Assembly: GCF_002556545.1 (NCBI RefSeq)
Contig: NZ_CP022685.1
Location: 3,224,001 to 3,288,000, forward strand
Direction: 5' to 3'
DNA: 64,000 bases
DNA from: Streptomyces formicae
GTDB taxonomy: Bacteria > Actinomycetota > Actinomycetes > Streptomycetales > Streptomycetaceae
In this document: positions 9,930 to 13,288 of the stretch, piece by piece
Position numbering within the stretch: position 1 is the stretch's first letter
Layout: each line of letters begins with the position of its first letter
Notes under the pieces: model-generated
Seen by the model: only the letters and a program-made list of their open reading frames with translations
What the model was told of the DNA's origin: nothing
Database searches by the model: none
Program-made: the position numbers and the translations under genes

Positions 9930-10006
9930 TGGTCGGGGTGGCGGGATTTGAACCCACGGCCTTCCGCTCCCAAAGCGGACGCGCTACCAAGCTGCGCCAC
10001 ACCCCG
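9930..10006 (-). tRNA. tRNA-Pro (anticodon UGG), CCA encoded
   Basis: Full cloverleaf: acceptor CGGGGTG/CACCCCG, D-arm GCGC-AGCTTGGTA-GCGC, anticodon stem TCCGC/GCGGA with loop TTTGGGA (anticodon TGG), T-loop TTCGAAT. The discriminator A is followed by encoded CCA at 9932-9930. Lies directly upstream of tig, same strand. Confidence 0.95.
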
Positions 10007-10160: not shown

Positions 10161-10231
10161 GCGGGCGTAGCTCAATGGTAGAGCCCTAGTCTTCCAAACT
10201 AGCTACGCGGGTTCGATTCCCGTCGCCCGCT
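10161..10231 (+). tRNA. tRNA-Gly (anticodon UCC)
   Basis: 71-nt cloverleaf: acceptor GCGGGCG/CGCCCGC, anticodon stem CTAGT/ACTAG with loop CTTCCAA (anticodon TCC), T-loop TTCGATT. No CCA encoded. Divergent from tRNA-Pro; no integrated element lies beside it. Confidence 0.95.
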
Positions 10232-10236
10232 CCGAG

Positions 10237-10274: not shown

Positions 10275-10593
10275 GTTTCCCGGCCTTCCCGGGTTTTTCC
10301 GGGCCCTCCCGGTGGCCTGCGCGAGCCCTGCCATAACGGGATCTTTCAGGGGTGCATAGCTCGCCCTCAGGGACGTATCGGGTCGGATACCGGCCGGTGG
10401 GAGCGCCTGCCGCGAGGGCCGGGTCGGCTGCCCGGCCGCTCAGGGGCCCGCGCCCGTTCCCCCTGCGGCGGTTTTGCGCCTGGCCTATGCCAAGGGCGTT
10501 CGCGAGACCCCTTGTGATCCCGGACGCGCCGACCGGACGATCGGTCCCCTTCACCCGCCCTCTCCCCGTCCTCATGGACCCACGGAGGTTCCG

Positions 10594-11982
10594 ATGACCG
10601 ATCGACTCTCCCTCGGCCCGGATGCCGCACGGCAACTGGCGACCGCCACCAAGACCGTCCCGCAGATGCGCGGCATCACGCCCCGGTACCTGCTGCGCGC
10701 CCTGCCCTGGGTGGACCTCGACTCCGGTGTGTACCGCGTGAACCGGCGCCGCACCTTCGTCCTCGGCGACGACCGCATCAGCACCTACGACGACAACGGC
10801 AGCCCCCGCGTCGTCCCCGGCGACTTACGCGAGGTGCCGTACCTGCGCGAGGCCGACGACGCCGCGGTCGCCCAACTCGCCGACGCCTTCACGGAGGTGT
10901 CCTTCGAGGCCGGGCAGGTCATCGTGCAGGAGGGCGACGCCGCGGACCGGCTCTGGATCATCGTCCAGGGGCGTGCCGAGAAGCGGGTGACCGGGCGGTA
11001 CGGCGAGGACGCGCTGCTCGAAGTCGTCGGGGACGGGCAGTTCTTCGACCTGGGCGCGTGGAGCAGGTCCGAGCCGATGCCGTACCGCGTCCAGGCGCTC
11101 ACCCGGGGCACGGCCCTGTGCGCCGAGCGGAGCGCGCTCGCGGCGCTCGTCGAGCGTGACGAGGCGCTGGGCGCCGAGCTTGCGGCGTACCAGGAGGGCG
11201 ACGCCCCGATGCCGGGCTCCGAGGTGCCGGTGGACCTCACGGCGGGGCACGTCGGCGAGCCCGACCTGCCGGGGACGTACGTCGACTACGAGGACGCGCC
11301 CCGCGAGTACCACATGACGCTCGCCCAGACCGTGCTGCGCGTGCACACCCGCGTCGCCGACCTCTACAACGGGCCCATCGACCAGACCCGCGCGCAGGCG
11401 AACCTGACCATCGCCGCGCTGCGCGAGCGGCAGGAGTCCGCGCTCCTGAACCACCCCGATTTCGGCCTGTTCAACAGCGTCTCCCCCGGACAGCGCGTGC
11501 AGGCGCGGACCGGCGCGCCCACCCCCGACGACCTGGACGAGCTGCTTGCCAAGGTCTGGAAGCAGCCCGGCTACTTCCTGGCGCACCCGAAGGCGATCGC
11601 CGCGTTCGGCCGCGAATGTACGCGCCGGGGCGTGCCCCCGGTGACCGACAACCGGTTCGGCAGTCCGCTGCTCACCTGGCGCGGGGTGCCGCTGCTCCCT
11701 TCGGACAAGGTGCGCTTCACCAACGGCGGCGGCGTCCACACGGGCACCACCGAGATCCTCCTGATGCGGATGGGCGAGGCCGAGAGGGGTGTGGTCGGGC
11801 TGCGGCCCGCCGAGGTGCCCGACGAGGCCGAGCCGGGCCTGTCGATGCGGAACATGGGCGTCGACAACAAGGGCATCACGTCGTACCTGATGACGGCGTA
11901 CTTCAACACCGCGGTCCTGGTGGAGGACGCCATCGCCGTCCTCCAGAACGTCGAGGTGGCCAAGTACCATGACTATTCCTGA
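10594..11982 (+). CDS. Family 2B encapsulin shell protein with inserted cNMP-binding domain (EshA-like)
   Basis: HK97-fold shell protein that should self-assemble into a protein nanocompartment around the desulfurase encoded next. 462 aa from ATG at 10594 (GGAGG 6 bp upstream). Residues 1-80 are the shell N-arm and start of the E-loop. About 85-205 is an inserted Crp/cNMP-binding fold (VSFEAGQVIVQEGDAADRLWIIVQGRAEKRV ... FFDLGAWSRSEPMPYRVQA, shown here in two parts). About 235-462 returns to the shell fold (DYEDAPREYHMTLAQTVLRV, LMRMGEAERGVVGL, GITSYLMTAYF). Known relatives are Streptomyces EshA and mycobacterial MMP-I. The gene has one TTA leucine codon at 10825-10827. It overlaps the next gene by 14 nt. 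The family call is from motifs; the nucleotide ligand is unknown. Confidence 0.92.
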   Translation: MTDRLSLGPDAARQLATATKTVPQMRGITPRYLLRALPWVDLDSGVYRVNRRRTFVLGDDRISTYDDNGSPRVVPGDLREVPYLREADDAAVAQLADAFTEVSFEAGQVIVQEGDAADRLWIIVQGRAEKRVTGRYGEDALLEVVGDGQFFDLGAWSRSEPMPYRVQALTRGTALCAERSALAALVERDEALGAELAAYQEGDAPMPGSEVPVDLTAGHVGEPDLPGTYVDYEDAPREYHMTLAQTVLRVHTRVADLYNGPIDQTRAQANLTIAALRERQESALLNHPDFGLFNSVSPGQRVQARTGAPTPDDLDELLAKVWKQPGYFLAHPKAIAAFGRECTRRGVPPVTDNRFGSPLLTWRGVPLLPSDKVRFTNGGGVHTGTTEILLMRMGEAERGVVGLRPAEVPDEAEPGLSMRNMGVDNKGITSYLMTAYFNTAVLVEDAIAVLQNVEVAKYHDYS

Positions 11983-13288
11983 CGTTCAGGGTTTCGGGCC
12001 CGGTCCCACGGCGCTCACGGGGGTCGCGCCGACGGCTCCCGCGCTGCCCGCCGTCTCGCTCTCGCCTCCCGGCACGTTCTCCCCCGAGGCGGCCCGCGGC
12101 GACGTACCGATCCTGCACAGGACCGTGAACGGGCAGCCGCTCGTCTGGCTCGACAACGCCGCCACCACGCAGAAGCCGCGCCAGGTGATCGAGGCCCTCA
12201 CCGCCTACTACAGCGCCGCCAACTCCAACATCCACCGCGGCGCCCACACCATGGCCCGCGAGGCGACGGAGATGTACGAGGCGGGGCGCGCCGCGGTCGC
12301 CTCGTTCCTGGGGGCCGAGGGGCCCGAGACCATCGCCTTCGTCCGCGGCACCACCGAGGCGATCAACCTGGTGGCCCAGAGCTGGGGCCGGGCGAACCTC
12401 GGTCCTGGCGACGACATCCTCGTGCCGGTCCTTGAGCACCATTCGGACATCGTCCCCTGGCAGTTGATCGCCAAGGAGACGCGCGCCCGGGTGGTCCCCG
12501 TGCCGCTGGACGCCGCGGGGCAGATCGACCAGGCCGCGTACGCCGATCTGCTCTCCTACCGCACCCGGCTGGTCGCGATCAGCCACGCGTCGAACGTCCT
12601 CGGCACGGTCCCGCCGGTCAAGGAGATGACCGCGCTCGCGCACCGCTACGACGCCAGGGTGCTCGTGGACGGCGCGCAGGCGGTGGCCCACCTGCCCGTC
12701 GACGTACAGGACCTGGGCGCGGACTTCTACGCCTTCTCCGGGCACAAGCTGTTCGCGCCCACCGGCATCGGCGCCCTGTACGCGCGGCCGGAGGTGATGG
12801 CGGCGCTGAAACCGTGGCAGGGCGGCGGCAACATGATCGAGTCGGTCTCCTTCGACCGGACGACGTTCGCCCCTCCGCCGCACCTCCTGGAGGCCGGCAC
12901 CGGGCACATCTCCGGGGTGGTGGGGCTGCTCGCCGCGCTGAACTGGCTGACGTCCTTCGACCGCGCGGCCGTCACGGCGTACGAGGACGCGCTCATGGCC
13001 TATGCCGAGCAGGCCATGGCCACCGTGCCGGGACTCTCCCTGCTCGGGGCGGCGCCCGACCGGATCGCGGTGCTGACCTTCACGCTCGCGGGGCACGACC
13101 CCGCGACGGTCGCCGACTGGCTCGACCGCGACGGCATCGCGGTCCGCGCGGGCCACCACTGCGCGCAGCCCGCCCTCGCGCACTACGGCCTGGAGTCGGC
13201 GGCGCGCGCCTCGCTCTCGCTCTACAACACCTCGGAGGAGGTGGACCGCCTGGTGAGCTCGCTGCGCGGACTCCAACAGGCGTCCTGA
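11969..13288 (+). CDS. SufS-type cysteine desulfurase, encapsulin cargo
   Basis: PLP-dependent enzyme that releases sulfur from cysteine to leave alanine. 439 aa. Residues 1 to about 45 are a disordered Pro/Ala/Thr-rich tail absent from housekeeping SufS, a likely cargo-loading segment. The catalytic domain starts at LVWLDNAATTQKP. The PLP lysine is Lys260 in SGHKLFAPTG; the persulfide cysteine is Cys398 in RAGHHCAQP. The ATG lies inside the 3' end of the shell gene (14-nt overlap) with GAGGTGG upstream, so translation is coupled. No suf or serine acetyltransferase genes are adjacent, which argues against an Fe-S assembly operon and for the sulfur-related nanocompartment role known for this shell/cargo pairing. 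Confidence 0.93.
   Translation: MTIPDVQGFGPGPTALTGVAPTAPALPAVSLSPPGTFSPEAARGDVPILHRTVNGQPLVWLDNAATTQKPRQVIEALTAYYSAANSNIHRGAHTMAREATEMYEAGRAAVASFLGAEGPETIAFVRGTTEAINLVAQSWGRANLGPGDDILVPVLEHHSDIVPWQLIAKETRARVVPVPLDAAGQIDQAAYADLLSYRTRLVAISHASNVLGTVPPVKEMTALAHRYDARVLVDGAQAVAHLPVDVQDLGADFYAFSGHKLFAPTGIGALYARPEVMAALKPWQGGGNMIESVSFDRTTFAPPPHLLEAGTGHISGVVGLLAALNWLTSFDRAAVTAYEDALMAYAEQAMATVPGLSLLGAAPDRIAVLTFTLAGHDPATVADWLDRDGIAVRAGHHCAQPALAHYGLESAARASLSLYNTSEEVDRLVSSLRGLQQAS

Follow-up and report, generated by a model that had tools for sequence, protein, structure and literature searches.

The window analysed here is a stretch of 64,000 nucleotides from Streptomyces formicae. It contains a Family 2B encapsulin shell gene, followed by an overlapping gene for a SufS-type cysteine desulfurase, its candidate cargo (Table 1). 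The shell protein has an HK97 fold related to SrpI and EshA, as found by family models and fold comparison, and carries a cNMP-type domain in the E-loop. Both features place it in Family 2B. In the predicted model, shell residues ~66-204 superpose on CNBD structures.

The desulfurase scores 501.5 with TIGR01979, above the cut-off of 475.1, as fits a SufS-like catalytic domain. With NF041166 (f2_encap_cargo1) it reaches 609 bits, below the cut-off of 800, and model positions 1-223 are unmatched, so it does not count as a full-length match. K260 is invariant in the alignment, as is C398, which we take to be the SufS catalytic cysteine. The HK97 parts of the shell (pN/pS 0.25) and the desulfurase core (pN/pS 0.31) are both under purifying selection (27 sequences). 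At the level of sequence, the shell family, the HK97 fold with its CRP-like insertion and the intact desulfurase core are demonstrated. What the first-pass annotation had seen, an encapsulin shell with a desulfurase overlapping it by 14 nt, is confirmed.

Table 1. Features of the operon and of the region 5' of it, in window coordinates
Feature	Position	Strand	Remark
tRNA-Pro	9930-10006	-	shortly 5' of shell gene
tRNA-Gly	10161-10233	+	shortly 5' of shell gene
Two-part upstream element TTGTG-N20/21-GATCG	10511..10544	+	~80 nt 5' of shell start
Family 2B encapsulin shell gene	10594..11982	+	462 aa; HK97 parts ~residues 1-73 and 222-462
CRP-like domain in shell E-loop	10825..11193	+	residues ~78-200; Pfam cNMP_binding 102-189
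Degenerate phosphate-binding cassette	11035..11106	+	shell residues 148-171; alignment
Shell residue N420	11851..11853	+	aligns with SrpI F262; alignment
GAGGTG, Shine-Dalgarno-like	11953..11958	+	10 nt 5' of desulfurase ATG, within shell gene; sequence reading
SufS-type cysteine desulfurase, candidate cargo	11969..13288	+	439 aa
Shell/desulfurase overlap	11969..11982	+	14 nt; sequence
Disordered N-terminal tail of desulfurase	11969..12070	+	residues 1-34; pLDDT <50 in model
Desulfurase C398	13160..13162	+	RAGHHCAQP context; invariant in 32-sequence alignment

Distribution and neighbourhood of the pair

Within the genus, the shell and desulfurase of this streptomycete subclade (hereafter the clade) share one set of 33 genomes out of 295, at E <= 1e-160 for each and with no more than 5 candidates scored in each genome. 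The two genes are adjacent in 32 of these, and in the 33rd (G213) they lie on two contigs. This bears out the earlier claim of one functional pair, but it is no proof of enclosure, since adjacent genes also co-occur when they move together. Among the best 80 loci a shell adjoins the desulfurase in 77, the exceptions being L037 (match at a contig edge), L060 and L069. The nearest desulfurases are thus encapsulin-linked.

Across 29 neighbourhoods, compared with an ORF filter that may miss genes, only the shell (28) and the enzyme (29) are widely common, and the next cluster, of minus-strand frames, is present in 8. As the first-pass annotation had stated, no suf, cysE or rhodanese partner lies nearby. 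Serine acetyltransferase was found in 0 of 30 clade loci, versus 28 of 37 Family 2A and 3 of 10 other Family 2B loci. In terms of rhodanese domains, the genome has 12 matches, none within the window. A housekeeping SufS is encoded elsewhere in the genome, with SufC and SufU alongside. A second shell gene, as in two-component systems, is present neither in 26 clade loci (those of L013-L039 showing a shell) nor beside the window's enzyme. Conserved synteny with tig/clpP/clpX was rejected, with 0 of 28 clade loci matching at E <= 1e-10 and the positive control in the window found.

We read the pair as an encapsulin operon of Family 2B from a subclade of streptomycetes, made of a shell and a translationally coupled SufS-type desulfurase, with no other fixed partner found. 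We give this reading a probability of about 0.7. Family 2B desulfurase operons are already known, with 199 in nine phyla published in 2021 (PMC8346489, in the sections used here). A light check of the literature met no mention of the motif-less tail, the altered contact residue and the bare two-gene layout described below for the streptomycete clade, and priority is not established.

The S. formicae genome has two further Family 2B shells above the model cut-off, ~2.4 and 3.0 Mb from the window. The earlier description of EshA as a cNMP-domain relative is correct as to the relationship. It is understated, as the same Family 2B model also accepts EshA-type shells, and two more such shells are present in this genome. 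By eye, one of the two (L005 and L006, at 6.21 and 0.85 Mb) adjoins a polyprenyl synthase-like gene; next to the other are a methyltransferase gene and a 2-MIB-synthase-like gene with GPNGLGT. Of 101 genomes in the genus, 99 have one or more Family 2B shells above the cut-off; the desulfurase type is found only in the 33 of 295 mentioned above.

We also scanned upstream of the shell gene, taking the window together with L013-L039, L094-L122 and L152-L154. The pattern TTG[TC]G-N17-28-GATCG is present in 19 of 34 clade regions, a count inflated by shared ancestry, and the spacer is 20-21 nt in 18 of the 19. In 100 shuffles the mean was 0.38 and the maximum 2. A regulon was rejected, as the strict pattern occurs once genome-wide, at the window operon. 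Apart from the window, upstream tRNAs were found in only 3 of 30 clade loci scanned, all of them tRNA-Ser (L021, L023 and L032), and a general tRNA insertion site was rejected on this count. A tRNA match in L027 falls within the tail-coding stretch and looks spurious.

Tail, gene overlap and docking site

In the SrpI system, the desulfurase has a long disordered N-terminal domain that is required for loading and contains the motifs LARLANEFFS and AASPYYFLDG (PMC8049743, in the sections used here). Relaxed forms of these published motifs, and with them a long domain of this kind, were found in 0 of 54 clade tails. This set leaves out L037 and L101, which have no junction, and the duplicates L093, L098, L100, L110 and L117. 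The same patterns find at least one motif in 34 of 37 Family 2A tails. For Family 2B tails of other phyla the count is at least 5 of 10, a lower bound, as looser versions visible by eye in some of them escape the patterns. On these motif counts, packaging through a Family 2A-type tail, as first worded, is not supported.

The tails add between 6 and 192 residues, with a median of 56 and 34 in the window. The extra length is 20 residues or less in 9 of the 54 tails, with the minimum in L114; a housekeeping SufS has 5 extra residues on the same measure (by eye). In terms of composition, clade tails are 21% Pro and 20% Ala, and the window tail is rich in Pro, Ala, Gly and Thr. The word GPTAL, which resembles the terpene-cyclase motif GPTGLGT, is found in three of the 54 tails, those of the window (11969-12076), L154 (where it reads GPTALATSAA) and L097.

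The desulfurase could still be loaded as in Family 2A if its disordered tail were recognised by bulk composition, with no fixed motif. Most members have a tail, disordered in the model, and Family 2B polyprenyl transferase cargoes also have disordered tails without motifs (PMC8346489, in the sections used here). Furthermore, the word GP[TN][GA]L is found in 3 of 54 tails, the window included, versus a shuffle mean of 0.17 (p 0.002), with a pattern picked after seeing the data. However, the tail of L114 is one residue longer than that of a housekeeping SufS, the short tails make up a sixth of the set, and no 5- or 6-mer recurs in clade tails beyond what shuffled tails give. We regard recognition by bulk composition as a real possibility that falls short of an even chance.

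The gene overlap bears on the start of the tail. Its 14 nt set desulfurase codons 1-4 in full and the first two positions of codon 5. The same overlap is present in 54 of 54 clade junctions and is old, since it is also found in 20 of 37 Family 2A junctions. Residues 1-5, MT[TI]P[DE], are nearly fixed and are the only well-conserved tail residues; 31 of the 54 tails have V at position 6. On this evidence, the loading signal might be the short peptide MT[TI]P[DE]V at the N-terminus, conserved through binding to the shell. Yet the overlapping shell codons dictate residues 1-5. Among the junctions compared (window and 26 further loci), the shell ends in HDYS or HDYA followed by TGA, apart from variants such as YDYA in two. 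Where desulfurase residue 3 alternates between T and I, the overlapping Tyr codon of the shell changes synonymously. The overlap explains the conservation, which was rejected as a signal, and a loading peptide at this place seems unlikely to us.

On the shell side, SrpI F262 and Y273 lie near weak cargo density at the three-fold axis (PMC8049743, in the sections used here), so the role of F262 as a cargo contact is itself weakly founded. Aligned with 6x8m, these residues correspond to N420 and Y431 of the window shell. Position 420 is N in 45, D in 1 and A in 1 of 47 clade shells, and Tyr is retained at position 431 in 46 of 47. In all 38 EshA-type shells and in 37 of the 38 from Family 2A, the residue equivalent to F262 is Phe; other Family 2B shells have Leu (9 of 11) or Phe (2 of 11) there. 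The clade set leaves out the five duplicates named above and shells shorter than 430 aa, which lie at locus ends; the EshA-type set leaves out those below 430 aa, and the Family 2A and other Family 2B sets leave out rows cut at the start. Under set thresholds, eight shell positions are clade-specific, and four of them (405, 418, 420 and 438) fall within 34 residues around the docking site. The binomial estimate for this clustering is 0.009, for a stretch picked after seeing the data. Contact residue and motif are not strictly coupled, as Leu and motif occur together in two other-phyla loci.

Motif loss and the change of the contact residue coincide in the clade, which is consistent with a changed mode of loading and equally with a loss of loading. 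As to the first, one reading, less likely than not, is that the desulfurase is enclosed without a tail signal. The Family 2A loading domain would have been lost, the three-fold patch rebuilt (F262 to N420, with 405, 418 and 438), and the enzyme captured via its folded surface or through coupled translation.

As to the second, the desulfurase might not be cargo at all and might work outside the shell, merely co-expressed with it. Both motifs are missing from every clade tail, as would equally be expected of an unpackaged enzyme, the SrpI contact residue is changed in 47 of 47 clade shells, and the serine acetyltransferase common at Family 2A loci is not found at clade loci. Against this, neither shell without enzyme nor enzyme without shell occurs in the 295 genomes, and the genome already has its housekeeping SufS beside SufC and SufU. 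We consider a desulfurase outside the shell improbable.

Returning to the pair as an encapsulin operon, about 60 shell subunits would form a closed T=1 shell of roughly 28 nm, by analogy with solved Family 2B shells, and a desulfurase dimer would be enclosed during shell assembly. L-cysteine would enter through pores and yield alanine and an enzyme-bound persulfide. The sulfur would be kept inside as persulfide or elemental sulfur until reduced, a storage role carried over by analogy from Family 2A. Loading without the LARLANEFFS/YYFL tail would most likely involve contact of a remodelled three-fold patch around N420 with either a short segment at the enzyme's N-terminus or its folded part, and coupled translation from the overlapping gene would help it.

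If true, tail-free capture would be a third loading mode for encapsulins and the pair a minimal two-gene sulfur compartment. For desulfurase encapsulin systems, no specific targeting peptide is known according to the sections of PMC8346489 used here. How Family 2 shells recruit cargo becomes testable with two genes and single-residue swaps, since in a natural clade the tail goes down to housekeeping length, the pair is never separated and the shell contact has a matching change.

The inserted CRP-like domain

The inserted domain has a degenerate cassette. The canonical Gly-Glu and phosphate-binding Arg, which from CRP and PKA are presumably the ligand residues, are replaced in the window by D152-L153 and M162. 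None of the 47 clade shells, window included, retains them, which does not fit a receptor. With the L043 cassette, FGEIALIEEKPRTATVRA, as reference for the residue comparison, Gly is changed to D or C and Glu to L or A, and Arg is never present (47/47). EshA-type shells retain Gly with an adjacent Glu or Asp in 38 of 38, with Arg missing in 38 of 38. All 11 other Family 2B shells have Gly-Glu, and two of them (L040 and L043) also have Arg. Judged by its cassette sequence, the inserted domain of clade shells is a poor cyclic-nucleotide receptor.

The domain has a pN/pS of 0.54 (27 sequences), twice as relaxed as the HK97 parts. It is still constrained, so some role is likely. In Family 2B shells it sits above the two-fold pore (PMC12407261, in the sections used here), and it would probably be structural, or a lid on this pore that does not respond to cyclic nucleotides. 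The first-pass annotation had inferred a ligand-gated sulfur compartment, in which cAMP, cGMP or a related nucleotide on the inserted domain opens the pore; this fits the CRP/PKA fold, the purifying selection on the domain, relaxed as it is, and the intact canonical residues in two related desulfurase operons (L040 and L043), but it is very improbable and was rejected, as the pocket residues are gone throughout the clade and Family 2B domains are reported not to bind any cyclic nucleotides (PMC12407261, citing another study, in the sections used here).

A full cassette, FGE...PRTA, is found in two planctomycete-type (Schlesneria) Family 2B desulfurase shells, L040:6019-7407 and L043:3834-5222. 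From their sequences, these are the better candidates for real cyclic-nucleotide control. The result argues against the label "cyclic-nucleotide sensor" in the clade, and the label may fit L040 and L043.

Relationship to known encapsulin systems

The HK97 tree, unrooted, covers 66 sequences (the window and up to 18 from each group), and in it the clade groups with EshA-type shells with support of 100. Other-phyla Family 2B desulfurase shells group with Family 2A (support 99), apart from streptomycete Family 2B. Mean HK97 identity of the clade is 57% with EshA-type, 57% with Family 2A and 59% with other Family 2B shells. From the grouping of the other-phyla shells with Family 2A, the inserted domain may have arisen or disappeared repeatedly. 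Should the root lie elsewhere than on the Family 2A branch, the shells united as Family 2B by that domain would not be one lineage. Being unrooted, the tree gives no direction for gain or loss.

The closest layout is that of the Family 2B desulfurase encapsulins (PMC8346489), which have the same HK97 shell with an internal cNMP-type domain and an adjoining SufS-type desulfurase. At least half of the ten other-phyla loci keep a Family 2A-type motif and most have Leu at F262, whereas the clade has no motif and mostly Asn. Next, the SrpI-CyD system of Synechococcus elongatus, of Family 2A (PMC8049743, in the sections used here), shares with the clade a SufS-type desulfurase and the mean HK97 identity given above (~57%); its kind also shares the -14 overlap (20 of 37 loci) and the shell C-terminal H-D-Y. 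SrpI lacks the inserted domain present in the window shell, and loading of its cargo needs an N-terminal domain of 225 residues with two motifs, which the window tail does not have. A serine acetyltransferase often adjoins Family 2A loci, unlike clade loci.

EshA-type shells (PDB 9bhu, Streptomyces griseus) have the same domain layout as the window shell and are sister to the clade in the unrooted tree. They differ in a terpene cyclase or polyprenyl transferase cargo, in the Phe at F262 and in keeping the Gly and acid of the cassette. Lastly, Streptomyces lydicus has a two-component Family 2B shell (PMC12407261, in the sections used here; 9bje, 9bix) that shares the fold, and KVWK of the window shell resembles TVWK of Enc1. 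That system has two shell genes and a xylulose kinase, whereas clade loci have a single shell gene and a desulfurase.
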